From Clostridia bacterium (GTDB taxonomy: Bacteria > Bacillota > Clostridia > Oscillospirales > Acutalibacteraceae), in assembly GCA_017935325.1 (NCBI GenBank), contig JAGBHV010000058.1, positions 1 through 47,874 of the forward strand: a stretch of 47,874 nt of DNA, read 5' to 3'. The position numbers and the translations under genes are program-made. The notes beneath the pieces were generated by a model. That model was not told the origin of the DNA. It was given only the letters and a program-made list of their open reading frames with translations, and ran no database searches. This document shows positions 131-28,164 of this stretch, one piece after another. Every line of letters begins with the position of its first letter. Positions within the stretch are counted from its first letter, which is position 1.

Positions 131-2401
131 TTATAATTTATTTCTCTGGATTTTACCGCTGATTGTTTTGGGAAGTTCGTCTTTGAAAACAACGATTCTG
201 GGATATTTATAGGGTGCTGTTTTCTCTTTAACGTAGTTCTGGATTTCTTTCTTAAGCTCTTCTGTGCCCTCTGTGCCTTTAGTAAGAACAATGCTTGCCT
301 TGACTACCTGGCCGCGGAGTTCATCGGGTGCTGCTGAAACACCACATTCAAGAACATAGGGAAGTTCCATAATAACGTTTTCGATTTCGAATGGTCCGAT
401 ACGATAACCTGAAGACTTGATAACATCGTCAGCACGGCCCACATACCAGAAGTAGCCGTCTTCATCTCGCCATGCAACGTCGCCTGTGTGATACATACCA
501 TCGTGCCATGCTTCTTTTGTTTTTTCTTCATCGTTGTGATAGCCGAGGAACAAACCGTTGGGCACGTATTTATCTGTGCGTACAACGATTTCACCGTTTT
601 CACCAACACCTACGGGGTTGCCGTCAGAGTCAACGATGTCGATATCATAAAGAGGAATGGGTTTACCCATTGAGCCGACTTTAGGCTGCATACCTGCAAG
701 GTTTGCGATTGTAAGAGTTGTTTCTGTCTGACCGAAGCCTTCCATAATACGAAGTCCTGTTATTTTCTCAAATTGTTTGAAAACTTCAGGGTTAAGTGCT
801 TCACCTGCTGTTGTTGCGTGAACGATTGAGCTTAAATCGTACTGTGAAATATCCTGCTTGATTAACATTCTGTACATTGTGGGAGGTGCACAGAAGGTTG
901 TGATGTGATATTTTGCAAACATAGGCAAGATATCTGCAGCATTGAAACGGTCAAAGTCATAAACAAACACTGCACCTTCGCAGAGCCACTGACCGTAGAG
1001 TTTACCCCAGAGTGCTTTACCCCAGCCTGTATCGGAAATTGTGAAGTGAACGCCATCTTCACGTACACAGTGCCAGTATTTTGCTGTGATAAAATGACCG
1101 AGAGGATATTTATGTGAATGTGCTGCGATTTTGGGATAGCCTGTTGTACCTGATGTAAAGAACATAAGCATGGGGTCGTTACCGCAGGCTGTGTCTTCTT
1201 CTCTTTCGTATTTACGGGTAAAGAGAACACTTTCATCATCAAAGTTGTGCCAGCCTTCTCTGTGACCTCCAACGATGATTTTCGTCTGGAGTGAAGGTGA
1301 ATTCTTTGCTGCCAGATCAACCTGTTCAGGTGTGTTATCAGTTGCAGTACAAACGATTGCTTTAACATCTGCTGCGTTGAAACGATATTCAAAATCGTGG
1401 TCTTTAAGCTGATGTGTTGCAGGAATTACAATTGCGCCAAGTTTGTGAAGGCCGAGAATTGACATCCAGAACTGATAGTGACGCTTGAGAACAAGCATAA
1501 CCTTGTCGCCTTTTTTGATGCCCAATGATTTGAAGTAGTTTGCAGCCTGTGCAGAACCGCGCTTCATATCGTTGAAAGTGAATCTTCTTTCTGTTTTATC
1601 AATGCCGACGTGAATCATTGCAAGTTTATCGGGGTTCTTATCAGCAATAGCATCAACAACGTCAAATGCAAAGTTGAATTTATCGTCATCTGTAAAAGAG
1701 ATTTCCTGAAGAACTCCGTTTTCATCTTCTGTTGTGTGAATGAATTTTTCACAGGTGAGATTTTTAGTAGTTCTTGCAGTAACAATGCTTGAAAGGATTT
1801 CTTCTTCCTCAACATCTTCGTTACCTGCAAAAACAACTGCGAGGAAAGTACAGTCTTCACCGCCTACGGCAATCATACCGTGAGGCTCTGATGAATTGTA
1901 GAAAATACTGTCACCTTCGCGGAGAACTTCAGTATTGTCACCGATCTGCACTTTAAGAGTACCACTCAGAACCATATCAAATTCCTGACCTGAGTGAGTT
2001 GTTGTGTGGATAGGTTTTTCCTGCTGTTCAGCAGAATATTCATATTTAACAAAGTAAGGCTCACCGAGTTTTTTCTTGAATCTGGGAGCAAGGTTTTTGA
2101 TTTCAATGCCATCTTCGCTTGCAGTTACCTGGCCTTTGCCTTTTCTTGTAACTGTGTAAGAAGTAAGGTTTGCACTCTGACCTTCAAGAATATCTGAAAG
2201 TTCGATACCAAAAGCGAGTGAACACTTATGAATGAAAGTAAAGGGCAAATCTGTTTCACCCGCTTCATAAGTCTGATACAGTTCTGCAGAAATGTCAGTT
2301 TTATCAGCCATTTCTTCCACAGAATAGCCTGCGTCAAGACGCATCAGTCTGATTCTCCTGACGATTTCCATAAGTTGTTTGTCTGATGAATGATTTTCCA
2401 T
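131..2401 (-). CDS. XRE-cupin-AMP-forming acyl-CoA synthetase fusion
   Basis: Three modules are read in order. An XRE helix-turn-helix covers about residues 10-70 and a small cupin barrel about 110-190 (H-T-T-x-H-S-G-Q-E-F, then SSEPHG). An ANL-family adenylating domain fills the rest. Its P-loop is FFTSGTTGYPK, its core motif GFGQTE and YHTGD, and its C-terminal catalytic Lys lies in PKTISGKIQR. The family activates a carboxylic acid with ATP and CoA to acyl-CoA, AMP and PPi; the ligase part resembles medium-chain (ACSM-like) enzymes. Start 2401 is preferred over the ATG at 2407 because GGAGG then sits 8 nt away instead of 2. The gene is preceded by a T-box leader reading AUC, so expression should rise when tRNA-Ile is uncharged. 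The HTH and cupin may let the enzyme sense its acid or a related ligand, which is inference. Substrate unproven; 2-methylbutyrate is a good candidate. Confidence 0.9.
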   Translation of the reverse strand: MENHSSDKQLMEIVRRIRLMRLDAGYSVEEMADKTDISAELYQTYEAGETDLPFTFIHKCSLAFGIELSDILEGQSANLTSYTVTRKGKGQVTASEDGIEIKNLAPRFKKKLGEPYFVKYEYSAEQQEKPIHTTTHSGQEFDMVLSGTLKVQIGDNTEVLREGDSIFYNSSEPHGMIAVGGEDCTFLAVVFAGNEDVEEEEILSSIVTARTTKNLTCEKFIHTTEDENGVLQEISFTDDDKFNFAFDVVDAIADKNPDKLAMIHVGIDKTERRFTFNDMKRGSAQAANYFKSLGIKKGDKVMLVLKRHYQFWMSILGLHKLGAIVIPATHQLKDHDFEYRFNAADVKAIVCTATDNTPEQVDLAAKNSPSLQTKIIVGGHREGWHNFDDESVLFTRKYEREEDTACGNDPMLMFFTSGTTGYPKIAAHSHKYPLGHFITAKYWHCVREDGVHFTISDTGWGKALWGKLYGQWLCEGAVFVYDFDRFNAADILPMFAKYHITTFCAPPTMYRMLIKQDISQYDLSSIVHATTAGEALNPEVFKQFEKITGLRIMEGFGQTETTLTIANLAGMQPKVGSMGKPIPLYDIDIVDSDGNPVGVGENGEIVVRTDKYVPNGLFLGYHNDEEKTKEAWHDGMYHTGDVAWRDEDGYFWYVGRADDVIKSSGYRIGPFEIENVIMELPYVLECGVSAAPDELRGQVVKASIVLTKGTEGTEELKKEIQNYVKEKTAPYKYPRIVVFKDELPKTISGKIQRNKL

Positions 2402-2448
2402 TTTCATAACCTCCGATTGTAATGGGTTCTGAAACTCTGAAGCAATAA

Positions 2449-2723
2449 AAAAGCCGCCTCAAAGCTTCTTTGAAAACTTTGAGACGGAATAAACTCAATC
2501 CGCGGTACCACTCAAATTGCGCCACTTAAGACGCCCCTCTGCAGAGCCTATCAGCTCCTTCGCACTAACGCAGCGTACACGTAAGACACTACTCGGTTAA
2601 CCTTTTGCATCTTCAGCTCGGAAGTGATAGGACCTGAAAAGCCACACTGCAGTTTCACACCAGCCAACTGCTCTCTGAAAGTCTGAACAAATCGTCCGTC
2701 TTCGTCATCGCTTTTAAAATATT
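2449..2723 (-). promoter_or_regulatory. T-box riboswitch, predicted isoleucine specifier
   Basis: Read on the minus strand, the leader has a Stem I start (GATGACGAAGAC), an AGAGAG/GGTG apical region, a canonical T-box segment GAGTGGTACCGCGG (2500-2513) and a terminator (stem 2454-2487 followed by TTTTTT). The specifier is read as ATC (2626-2628) in ATC-ACT-TCC-GAG. This aligns column for column with TGG-ACT-TTT-GAG in the Trp T-box of trpB in this same window. The UGGU of the T-box bulge would pair with an ACCA tRNA end, that is discriminator A, as in tRNA-Ile. Confidence is high for a T-box and moderate for the Ile codon. Confidence 0.93.
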
Positions 2724-2729
2724 GAAAAA

Positions 2730-2758
2730 ATTATAGCACTGTTTTCAGGGTGTGTCAA
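2730..2758 (-). promoter_or_regulatory. Consensus sigma-A promoter of the Ile T-box leader
   Basis: TTGACA (2753-2758) and TATAAT (2730-2735) on the minus strand with a 17-nt spacer, placing the start of the T-box RNA near 2723. Confidence 0.9.
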
Positions 2759-2776: not shown

Positions 2777-3874
2777 TTACACAAGAGTAAGAAGCAAATT
2801 AATACCAAGAAAAGCAATATTCACCAAAGTGAATACCATAATATACTTTTTGACATTAATCCCCTCTTTTGCTACAAGTTTAAATGAAATAAGACTTGCC
2901 ATTGAAGCTATAAGTGTGCCTAAGCCCCCCAGGTTTACACCCACCAGCAAATCTTTAACATTATTTGTGAAATTCGAAAGAAGTATTGCCGCAGGTACAT
3001 TAGAAAACACCTGACTTGAAATTATTCCTACGGCAATTTCTTTATCTGCAACAATATTTTTAAGGAATGAATTCACTGCAGGAATGTTGCCTAAATTGCC
3101 GATGAAAATAAACAGAAAAACAAATGTAAGCAAAAGGCTGTAGTCTATATTTCTAAGTACTTTTCTGTCAAAAATCAAAACAGAAACAAGTGTTACACCT
3201 AAAAGCACAAGAAAATGCACAACTCTGAAAACACTTAAAAGTGCCACCACAAAAAGAACAGAATAGATAATTATTCTGATATCAAAATTAAACTCCGTTT
3301 TTTCGTTTGCTATTTCGATTTTTTCCTTGCCTGTGAAAAGTGCTGAAACAACAATAAGTGCAAGCGACAATCCGGCATAGGGAAGAATGGCAGAAAAGAA
3401 ATCAGGCATACTCATTTCATACTTTGAAAAAAGATACAGATTCTGCGGATTGCCTATAGGTGTTGCCATACTGCCTAAGTTCGCAGCAACAGTTTCAAGC
3501 GTTATTAAAATTATCGCTTTATCTTTTTTTTCGGTTAAATTAAGTATCAGAAGAGTAAAAGGCACAAACGTTATAAGTGCAACATCGTTAGTTATAAGCA
3601 TTGAAGAAAAGAAGCAGAGAAGACACAGAACAATGCTTAATGAAGAAAAACTTTTCACAAATTTCAGGAGTTTTTCCGCAAGAAGTTTAAACACACCGAT
3701 TTTGTTAAGACCCGCAGTAACTGCCATTAAACTGAAAAGCAATACAAGTGTTTTGAAGTCGATATAATCAATATATCCTTTATTCGGCACTACCAAAAAA
3801 CAAGAAATTACCGCCAGAATAAAAGACAAAACAAGCACTATTTCATTTTTGATAAAACTTTTTACATTCTGCAT
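2777..3874 (-). CDS. SLC13/ArsB-type anion permease
   Basis: A 365-residue, highly hydrophobic protein with about ten predicted membrane segments. Two pseudo-repeated signature loops are visible: GSMATPIGNPQN near residue 135 and SSQVFSNVPAAILLSN near residue 285. The second resembles the S-N-V/T-P motif that binds substrate and Na+ in the divalent anion:Na+ symporter (DASS/SLC13) and arsenite/citrate permease superfamily. The role is import or export of an anion such as a di- or tricarboxylate across the cytoplasmic membrane; the substrate cannot be read from sequence. It is a little short for SLC13 but both halves are present. Its ATG is preceded by AGGTG. It has its own unit: the T-box promoter of the next gene lies just downstream and the REP-transposase promoter diverges upstream. 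Confidence 0.82.
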   Translation of the reverse strand: MQNVKSFIKNEIVLVLSFILAVISCFLVVPNKGYIDYIDFKTLVLLFSLMAVTAGLNKIGVFKLLAEKLLKFVKSFSSLSIVLCLLCFFSSMLITNDVALITFVPFTLLILNLTEKKDKAIILITLETVAANLGSMATPIGNPQNLYLFSKYEMSMPDFFSAILPYAGLSLALIVVSALFTGKEKIEIANEKTEFNFDIRIIIYSVLFVVALLSVFRVVHFLVLLGVTLVSVLIFDRKVLRNIDYSLLLTFVFLFIFIGNLGNIPAVNSFLKNIVADKEIAVGIISSQVFSNVPAAILLSNFTNNVKDLLVGVNLGGLGTLIASMASLISFKLVAKEGINVKKYIMVFTLVNIAFLGINLLLTLV

Positions 3875-26575: not shown

Positions 26576-26817
26576 AAGATAAACCTATGAGAAAGAGAAG
26601 TATCCGTCGCGGATTTCAAAGAGAGTGGTTGTCCGGTGCAAAACCATAATGATACGGCGGTGAATGGACTTTTGAGGGCAGCCCGAAATTTTCGTTATAA
26701 AGTAGGCGCTGACGGCAACCGACCGTTACCACGGGAGCGTATGATGGTACGCGTAAGCACAATATGGGTGGCATAGCAAGAGTTACGTATCTTGTCCCTG
26801 TTGGGGCAGGATTTTTT
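26576..26817 (+). promoter_or_regulatory. T-box riboswitch, tryptophan specifier
   Basis: Stem I begins with GAGAAAGAGAAGTA; AGAGAGTGG and an apical GGTG follow. The specifier TGG (26665-26667) lies in TGG-ACT-TTT-GAG. The T-box segment is TGGGTGGCATAGCAAG (26765-26780), a variant of the usual GGGTGGNACCGCG. Its UGGC would pair with GCCA, that is discriminator G, as in tRNA-Trp. The terminator stem CTTGTCCC/GGGGCAGG (26791-26810) has TTTTTT after it. Uncharged tRNA-Trp should allow readthrough into trpB. Confidence 0.93.
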
Positions 26818-26837
26818 ATTTTTATAAGGTGATTTAT

Positions 26838-26876
26838 ATGTTCATTATGTCAAAACGATGGCGAAGACTAAAATAA
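26838..26876 (+). CDS. Leader peptide [12 protein letters not shown] before trpB
   Basis: A 12-codon reading frame with its own ribosome site AAGGTG (26826-26831) 6 nt before the ATG. It lies after the T-box terminator and ends 43 nt before the trpB ATG. It has one Trp codon (TGG, 26859-26861) inside R-W-R-R. T-box leaders followed by a Trp-codon leader peptide are known from the rtpA (anti-TRAP) operon of Bacillus subtilis. The peptide also resembles the methyltransferase leader in this window. No second terminator follows it, so any effect would be on trpB translation or RNA stability. Confidence 0.65.
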
Positions 26877-26919
26877 TACCAAACACAGAAATTATATACT
26901 ATTCAAGGAGATTTTTATT

Positions 26920-28164
26920 ATGAACAAATACAGAGATTTTGATAATTATTTTAAAGAAATGCCCGATGAAAACGGATACTTCGGCGAATACGGCGGTGCT
27001 TTTCTGGACCCCGAGCTTGTACCTGCTTTTAAAGAAATCACAAGTTCTTATCAGGCTATCTGCCATTCAGCTCAGTTTATAAACGAGCTTCGCAGAATCA
27101 GAAAAGAATTCCAGGGCAGACCTACCCCCGTTTATCATTGTGAAAGATTATCTTCACTCTTCGGCAACTGCCAGATTTACCTCAAACGTGAAGATTTAAA
27201 CCACACAGGTGCACATAAACTTAACCATTGCATGGGCGAAGGCCTTCTTGCAAAATATATGGGTAAGAAAAAAGTTATTGCTGAAACAGGTGCAGGTCAG
27301 CACGGCGTTGCACTCGCTACCGCAGCAGCATATTTCGGACTTGAATGCGACATTTACATGGGCGAAGTTGACATTGCAAAACAGCACCCCAACGTTATCA
27401 GAATGAAAATGCTTGGTGCAAACGTTGTTCCTGTTACTCACGGCCTTAAAACGCTCAAAGAAGCTGTTGACGCGGCTTTTGATGCATACAAAAGAGAATA
27501 CCACGATGCTATTTACTGCATCGGCTCATGCCTCGGACCTCATCCCTTCCCCATGATGGTAAGAGATTTCCAGTCTGTTATCGGCATTGAAGCAAGAGAA
27601 CAGTTCAAAGAAATGACAGGCAACATGCCTGATGCAGTCTGTGCTTGCGTAGGCGGCGGTTCAAACTCACTTGGTATGTTCACACCATTCCTTGCTGACC
27701 CCGTTGATATTTACGGCATCGAGCCCCTCGGCAAGGGCGGCAACATAGGCGACCACGCTGCAACAATGAAATTCGGCTCAAAAGGTAAACTTCACGGTTT
27801 TGAAAGTTATCTCCTTCAGGACGAAAACGGTGAACCCCTCCCCGTTTACTCAATTGCAAGCGGTCTTGACTATCCCGGTGTAGGCCCTGAACATGCATAC
27901 TTAAAAGATGCAAACAGAGTTCACTACGATGCAGTAACTGACGAAGAAGCAATGGAAGCATTTTTCCTTCTTTCACGTTACGAAGGTATTATTCCCGCTA
28001 TTGAAAGTTCACACGCAGTTGCATATGCTATCAAATATGCAAAAGAAAAGAAAAGCGGTTCAATCCTCGCTTGTCTTTCAGGACGTGGCGACAAAGACAT
28101 TGACTATGTTTATGAAAAATACGGCTGCGGTGAGCAGTTCAACGTTGATAAATACAAAAAATAA
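26920..28164 (+). CDS. trpB: Tryptophan synthase beta subunit, solitary
   Basis: A 414-residue TrpB of the TrpB1 type. The PLP lysine is in [12 protein letters not shown] (K100). The catalytic Glu is in A-E-T-G-A-G-Q-H-G (E122), phosphate binding is in G-G-G-S-N-S-L-G, and the C-terminal G-R-G-D-K-D-I-D is present. It joins indole and serine to form tryptophan. The usual H-K-I-N-N after the lysine is H-K-L-N-H here. No trpA or other trp gene is nearby, so it probably salvages free indole, which gut bacteria release. The Trp T-box upstream supports tryptophan supply as its role. The ribosome site AAGGAG precedes ATG. Confidence 0.95.

Follow-up and report, generated by a model that had tools for sequence, protein, structure and literature searches.

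Branched short-chain acids have long been reported as sources of amino acids in the rumen, where 2-methylbutyrate is converted to isoleucine, isobutyrate to valine and isovalerate to leucine. These conversions are stated in PMC7356843, which cites Robinson and Allison (1969), Allison and Peel (1971) and Allison and others (1966) for them; the available part of that text assigns no genes to them. According to the available parts of their reports, two acyl-coenzyme A (CoA) ligases act on such acids: MbcS of Staphylococcus aureus activates 2-methylbutyrate and isobutyrate, isovalerate poorly and acetate undetectably (PMC10026030), and MacsMa favours 2-methylbutyrate (PMC10455477, PMC3438747). The locus described here lies in a stretch of 47,874 bases from a Clostridia bacterium of the family Acutalibacteraceae (JAGBHV010000058.1). 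This stretch, referred to as the window, is an entire contig (C84) of an assembly of 1.97 Mb in 96 contigs that is 81.5% complete. On its reverse strand, an isoleucine T-box leader precedes the gene of an acyl-CoA ligase (ligase 1). The reading preferred here, with a probability put at roughly 0.85, is that ligase 1 activates 2-methylbutyrate for isoleucine synthesis via the oxidoreductase VorBAC and the aminotransferase IlvE, and that a valine-led paralogue (ligase 2) does likewise with isobutyrate.

The leader matches the T-box model RF00230 over its full length (1-219) with 99.3 bits against a gathering score of 93 (E 8.8e-21, whole window). In addition to a score over the threshold, it has a specifier codon in place, a UGGN bulge, an antiterminator and a competing terminator, as expected of a T-box. 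The terminator stem is also the centroid fold (z -2.5). At the other promoter-like site listed between 2300 and 2900, 9 of 12 bases agree with the consensus, and 1.1 promoter-like and 0.5 terminator-like sites are expected by chance in the scanned stretch under the looser limits of the scan. An earlier note on this DNA had described a complete T-box leader with a consensus promoter, an ATC specifier aligned with a tryptophan specifier and a UGGU bulge. All of this holds: the covariance alignment to RF00230 places no other codon in the specifier, and the letters of the bulge were confirmed. AUC-ACUUCC-GAG of the ligase leader stands in register with UGG-ACUUUU-GAG of the second T-box in the window (26578-26802), and the same register is shared with the eight other T-boxes of the genome, the tyrosine leader having one extra base before GAG.

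Nine T-boxes were found in this genome at E <= 0.001, seven of them above the gathering score. Their specifiers, read from alignments, are Phe UUC, Leu CUC, Tyr UAC, Cys UGC, Trp UGG, Ala GCC, Val GUA and Ile AUC, the last occurring twice, on ligase 1 and on contig C83. The bulge is UGGC in the Trp leader, UGGA in the Cys leader and UGGU in the remaining seven. The tRNA 3' ends of the same genome are GCCA for Trp and ACCA for Val(UAC), Leu(GAG), Tyr and Ala(GGC). These ends match the bulges of the corresponding leaders, in agreement with the codon reading. The UGGU bulge of the ligase leader would pair with an ACCA end; no tRNA with a GAU anticodon, the isoleucine partner, is among the 28 detected in the 81.5%-complete assembly.

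Ligase 1 was taken by the earlier note for neither an aminoacyl-tRNA synthetase nor a standard amino-acid gene, and the domains found are indeed those of an adenosine monophosphate (AMP)-forming acyl-CoA ligase. That part of the description stands; the fusion to a helix-turn-helix (HTH) and a cupin domain, and the wider locus, go beyond it. The PF00501 score and the core motifs TSGTTGxPK, GQTE and SGKIxR, which we take to be the motif names in use for AMP-forming synthetases, place the protein among these enzymes. S419, G420, G423 and P425, G559, Q560 and E562, and S750, G751, K752 and R755 are invariant in 36 sequences. The second Met, at 2401, is the better-spaced start after GGAGG, as read by eye. 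The top solved relative is 3ETC with 647 bits, the runner-up scoring 357. This structure is presumably the Methanosarcina acetivorans enzyme MacsMa; its database entry says only AMP-binding protein. In the alignment to 3ETC, G559 replaces the tryptophan of Acs and W445 is the tryptophan of KYW, the combination of a MacsMa-type enzyme. The roles of these residues in MacsMa are taken from the available part of PMC10455477, and the placing of Trp259 at KYW is a mapping by the present alignment. Among NCBIfam models, the top match is MbcS (NF047394; residues 255-758, 451.1 bits). Judged by these comparisons, ligase 1 likely works like MbcS, though it is not classed as MbcS.

Features of the isoleucine T-box and ligase 1 in the window
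Feature	Position	Strand	Basis
Promoter TTGACA-17-TATAAT, TG before second hexamer	2730..2758	-	12/12 consensus bases
T-box leader, Stem I to antiterminator	2477..2717	-	RF00230 cmscan
Specifier codon AUC (isoleucine)	2626..2628	-	cmscan alignment, MAFFT alignment of 46 T-boxes, letters checked
Antiterminator, T-box bulge UGGU at 2507-2510	2480..2514	-	cmscan alignment, bulge letters checked
Intrinsic terminator, 15-bp stem, 4-nt loop, T run	2454..2487	-	terminator scan and fold
Acyl-CoA ligase 1, 758 residues, HTH + cupin + AMP-binding	131..2407	-	domain and family searches
HTH domain, residues 19-72	2192..2353	-	PF01381 (HTH_3) 26.8 bits, cut-off 23
Cupin domain, residues 132-192	1832..2014	-	PF07883 (Cupin_2) 51.2 bits, cut-off 27.2
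AMP-binding domain, residues 254-623	539..1648	-	PF00501 225.4 bits
AMP-binding C-terminal domain (AMP-binding_C), residues 674-752	152..388	-	PF13193 74.9 bits
Gly463, separating Ile-led (Gly) from Val-led (Ala) ligases	1019..1021	-	codon GGT checked

Relatives of the ligase were searched in 60 genomes, the source genome included, and 44 gave a match at E <= 1e-100. Forty stretches fetched from the matching genomes hold 25 fused ligases, 11 unfused ones (the HTH-cupin part separate from the ligase, or the ligase only) and 4 in which the match crosses a stop. At least 592 stretches of GTDB contigs matched, 275 of them encoding a relative, and the best 80 were kept, which added 79 loci. After removal of three repeats, the 25 and the 79 give 101 distinct fused-ligase loci, some of which are cut by contig ends. 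A T-box profile built from a MAFFT alignment of 46 leaders was run over 119 loci; its hits in L052-L076, L078 and L081 are not independent, because leaders from these loci partly trained it. The 181 T-boxes in the 119 loci read ATC (87), GTA (57), CTC (19), CTG (9) and GTC (3), together with five fragments and one misreading. For these six, automatic reading of the specifier column was unusable: the five are 3' fragments whose 5' parts were read separately (L110 twice, L112, L118 and L127), and the 'TCA' of L169 is TTC by eye, in a T-box about 6 kb away from the ligase. The specifiers of L171 and L174 were likewise read by eye from sequence context, as ATC and CTC.

The earlier note had suggested looking across related genomes for the same pairing of T-box and ligase and for a VOR-type oxidoreductase. 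Related genomes retain both the pairing and the codon. Of the 101 loci, 96 contain an Ile or Val T-box (Ile 80, Val 57, both 41) and a Leu T-box in 28, all three occurring together in 16. VorB accompanies the ligase in the stretch in 64 loci, all three Vor genes in 58 and the branched-chain aminotransferase IlvE in 43, every one of which also contains VorB. The common fuller order is Ile T-box and ligase 1, Val T-box (GUA or GUC) and ligase 2, an ATPase, a ferredoxin, VorBAC, IlvE, and then a Leu T-box with a LeuA-like gene and another ligase. A LeuA-like gene is the next gene found in 22 of the 28 Leu T-box loci, more than 400 bases off in one of them, and none is in view in the other 6. Among the 11 unfused stretches, an ATC T-box was found in four (G007, G013, G015 and G017) and none in seven, one of which lies at a contig start; the four stretches with an inner stop gave no T-box.

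Codon and enzyme are also linked by descent. From 190 ligase stretches, two of them from the source genome, 22 short or stop-containing and 5 identical ones were dropped to leave 163, and a tree was built, by FastTree only, from the 156 that remained without 7 short ligases lacking a leader. Labels by BLAST score as first or second ligase were of little use for the distant single ligases L069, L073, L076 and L169, and the tree was used instead. It holds 84 ATC-led, 50 GTA-led, 3 GTC-led and 19 leaderless ligases; all 137 leaders read isoleucine or valine, and no unrelated specifier occurs. The Ile/Val state changes twice. One change is a clade of 62 second ligases (support 99), 52 of them Val-led. 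The other is L151, a single GTC-led ligase that falls within the Ile clade and has the Val-type residue, Ala, at position 463.

Within the AMP-binding domain, 72 Ile-led and 52 Val-led fusions are told apart best by residue 463, which is Gly in 71 of the former and Ala in all of the latter. When all led ligases of at least 650 residues are counted, Gly stands there in 80 of 81 with ATC and Ala in 53 of 53 with GTA or GTC, L151 included. Of 15 leaderless ligases, ten have Ala, all of them in the Val clade, and five have Gly. Unfused ligases L081 and L088 (ATC) have Gly, and the unfused GTA-led ligase of G039 has Ala. The position follows the GW of its motif and aligns with a Gly of 3ETC and an Ile of yeast Acs1. 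The equivalent place in Salmonella Acs is presumably Val310, lining the acyl pocket; we take Val310, Thr311, Val386 and Trp414 to form that pocket, a role for which a literature search gave no confirmation. Gly463 may leave space for the larger C5 acid, and Ala463 may suit the C4 acid. Of the 60 positions that best separate Ile-led from Val-led ligases, 45 lie within residues 1-214 of 758, a segment made up of the HTH, the cupin and the linkers. The pairing of AUC with Gly463, and of GUA or GUC with Ala463, could mean that a riboswitch-enzyme cassette was duplicated and that codon and acid pocket changed together, so that the codon would tell the substrate, with the HTH-cupin part adding a second control of the locus by sensing of the acid or acyl-CoA. 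This scenario is tentative and is given somewhat less than an even chance.

The remainder of the cluster in the source genome was found at the start of contig C1, which carries a GUA T-box, ligase 2 (69% identical), a CbiA-like ATPase, a ferredoxin, VorB, VorA and VorC. VorB of C1 passes the NF005507 cut-off (544.7 against 399), and the domains PF02775 (thiamine pyrophosphate), PF01558 (gamma) and Fer4 are all above their cut-offs, as expected of a predicted VOR; the NCBIfam beta and gamma models of the C1 Vor genes fall below theirs. In the sister genomes G002, G004 and G006, both ligases stand in tandem ahead of VorBAC, each with a T-box, and for this reason C84 and C1 are most simply the two parts of a broken cluster. 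The window contig ends next to ligase 1, and the adjacency of C1 is based solely on this comparison with sister genomes. The CbiA-like ATPase (222 residues; L013 3047-3715) lies beside VorBAC and has a relative in all 64 VorB loci.

A leucine counterpart may be present on contig C24 (L014 4594-9969), where a CUC Leu T-box is found with a LeuA-like gene, a fusion of a TIM barrel with an AMP ligase, and IlvE. The LeuA-like protein consists of HMGL-like and LeuA_dimer domains, and the TIM barrel of the fusion is AP_endonuc_2. This set is possibly an arm from isovalerate to leucine; in genomes that lack a LeuC-type gene, the LeuA-like protein would have no obvious function in such an arm. A short LeuC-type frame, judged by frame lengths, occurs in 6 of 23 genomes (G002, G004, G006, G009, G018 and G059), and no aconitase-type match was found in G000, G003 and G016, which are 69-84% complete. 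On contig C71 (L016 4794-8439), IorA occurs with a POR gamma-domain gene and with a ligase of the PaaK type that scores below the PaaK cut-off; a search of this contig found no T-box, and the set is possibly an aromatic counterpart.

Some further observations were made in the window and among the loci. Directly upstream of the T-box promoter and on the same strand lies a CitMHS-type transporter gene (2777-3874, reverse strand). At 26578-28164 on the forward strand, a Trp T-box (UGG, UGGC bulge) leads trpB (TIGR00263, 527.9 bits, cut-off 392), and a search of seven genomes of this genus, including two that are at least 90% complete, gave no trpA (TIGR00262). TrpB alone could make tryptophan from indole, which would be another T-box-led salvage. 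Locus L132, from Erysipelotrichaceae bacterium NK3D112 (JNJQ01000009.1, not labelled as a metagenome-assembled genome), has a CTG-led LeuA-like gene and ligase and a single ATC T-box ahead of both ligases, plus VorBAC and IlvE. In L148 (8001-10265), titled as a Sphaerochaetaceae metagenome-assembled genome from horse feces, an Ile T-box, ligase, IlvE and VorBAC are found, by transfer or through a binning error.

The standard route was followed through ilvC; of 59 relatives, 28 have it above the cut-off. When a fusion genome is defined by at least 57% identity and no inner stop, ilvC is found in 5 of 22 fusion genomes and 23 of 37 others (Fisher p 0.006, kinship ignored); among genomes at least 90% complete, the figures are 4 of 15 and 20 of 29 (p 0.011, kinship ignored). 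Genomes with a T-box directly on such a ligase have ilvC in 6 of 25 cases against 22 of 33 (p 0.0016, kinship ignored), a comparison that leaves out G039 and in which, for the 33, upstream sequence was examined on part of the ligases. In G002, a Leu (CTC) T-box and then an Ile (ATC) T-box stand ahead of an operon of ilvC and a LeuC-type gene, and a broken operon in G006 (LeuC-type only, contig end) likewise starts with CTC and then ATC. The two leaders in a row are seen in the sister ilvC region L171 (15499-15933), where Rfam listed only the second and the CTC leader was found by the 46-leader profile. This region matches contig C52 of the source genome over its first 586 bases (94%), and C52 continues for 1.44 kb unmatched; its other five matches in that genome are short (70-75%), two being to T-boxes. 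Neither ilvC nor aconitase-type genes were found in the 81.5%-complete source assembly. That assembly by itself was rejected as proof that the standard route is missing, as at 81% completeness an absence is indistinguishable from a gap. The claim that the organism must lack the ordinary route is also unsupported: ilvC stands in a T-box-led operon in its nearest sister, G002. Because the fusion genomes include both holders of ilvC and genomes without it, the carboxylation route would be a second supply in some genomes and perhaps the only one in others.

Under the preferred reading, a shortage of isoleucine would leave tRNA-Ile (GAU) uncharged. The AUC specifier would pair with the anticodon of this tRNA, and the UGGU bulge with its ACCA end. 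The tRNA-bound leader would then form the antiterminator in place of the terminator, and ligase 1 would be transcribed. With ATP, the enzyme would convert 2-methylbutyrate from the gut or rumen to 2-methylbutyryl-CoA, which VorBAC, dependent on ferredoxin and working in the carboxylating direction, would turn into 3-methyl-2-oxovalerate, and IlvE would form isoleucine. By the same steps, the GUA-led ligase 2 beside VorBAC would lead from isobutyrate to valine. The earlier note had proposed activation of 2-methylbutyrate when Ile-tRNA is scarce; the codon, the conserved pairing and the VOR and IlvE neighbours support this proposal, in which 2-methylbutyrate is the predicted substrate.

Several observations weigh against this reading. 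Ligase 1 remains under the MbcS equivalog cut-off of 850 bits, and its acid preference may be loose, because MbcS accepts both 2-methylbutyrate and isobutyrate. VorB was not seen in 37 of the 101 loci. Less than 4 kb past the ligase is present in 16 of these; in the other 21, VorB is not adjacent, since at least 4 kb of downstream sequence is present, and such loci include single Ile-led and single Val-led ligases. No T-box was seen in five loci, of which L057 and L158 are truncated close to the gene and L069, L107 and L154 are uncut; a GTA T-box does occur on a different ligase in G039, the genome to which L069 belongs. In the Val clade of 62, no leader of their own was found for 10 ligases. 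Exceptions at residue 463 are the ATC-led fusion L066 (G028), with Ala, and the unfused ATC-led L089, with Met, and the large Gly and Ala counts amount to two or three events, because they mostly reflect one inherited duplication. Both the fusion and ilvC are held by G002 (ligase 99% identical, 98% complete), G004, G009, G018 and G050, and the absence of ilvC from the source genome may be a gap, because its sisters G002 and G004 keep the gene.

Three other explanations were weighed. The ligase might supply 2-methylbutyryl-CoA and isobutyryl-CoA as primers of branched-chain fatty acids, with the T-box tying lipids to amino-acid supply, as would suit a protein whose top NCBIfam match, MbcS, is reported to have a priming role (PMC10026030, in the part available). 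However, VorBAC and IlvE, which belong to the making of 2-oxoacids and amino acids, share the stretch in many loci, and for lipid priming there is no evident use in giving one paralogue an Ile leader and the other a Val leader, which makes this explanation improbable. It is very improbable that the ligase activates propionate, from which the oxidoreductase would make 2-oxobutyrate for isoleucine synthesis by the standard IlvBCD route. Some acyl-CoA synthetases of the superfamily accept propionate (PMC10455477, in the part available), and the Ile T-box-led operon of G002 contains ilvC; in contrast, ilvC over its cut-off was not found in 17 of 22 fusion genomes, and the Val-led paralogue is left unexplained.

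The whole pathway might also run in reverse, with VOR oxidizing branched amino acids to acyl-CoA and then acid. Enzymes of the VOR type work reversibly and are known from peptide fermentation, but AMP-forming ligases favour acyl-CoA formation. Moreover, a T-box responds to uncharged tRNA, that is, to shortage (PMC3766115, in the part available), which fits the making of an amino acid and not its burning, and the reverse direction is therefore considered extremely improbable.

Synthesis of isoleucine and valine from activated branched acids thus remains the preferred reading, and the locus offers candidate genes for this route in which the codon of the leader predicts the product of each ligase. 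Genomes without ilvC would be scored as isoleucine and valine auxotrophs by ordinary annotation; they may make both from acids released by their neighbours. The ligases would also be an example from nature in which a regulatory codon and a residue of the regulated enzyme have changed in step. No description of the locus was found in the available parts of the literature on the carboxylation route or on T-boxes in connection with CoA ligases, branched acids or regulons, a search outside of which most subscription journals fell. The available main text of Wels 2008 (PMC2494555) has no word starting with CoA, acyl or ferredoxin.

Among known systems, the rumen carboxylation route is the closest in chemistry, comprising the same three acid-to-amino-acid conversions as are proposed here (PMC7356843, in the part available). 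The rumen studies are biochemical by their titles, and the present locus contributes genes, gene order and control; with the chemistry long reported, the new part is the candidate genes and their codon-specific control. The leader belongs with the isoleucine class of the T-box family RF00230 by its full-length match, specifier, UGGN bulge, antiterminator and terminator, and differs in controlling an acyl-CoA ligase. MbcS is expected to share its acids with ligase 1, which scores under the MbcS cut-off; the S. aureus enzyme, in contrast, serves fatty-acid synthesis (PMC10026030, in the part available). With MacsMa, ligase 1 shares by alignment the Trp of KYW, the Gly of GFGQTE in place of the Acs Trp, and Gly463, from which enzyme it differs in carrying a fused HTH and cupin part and in being placed under the control of a T-box.

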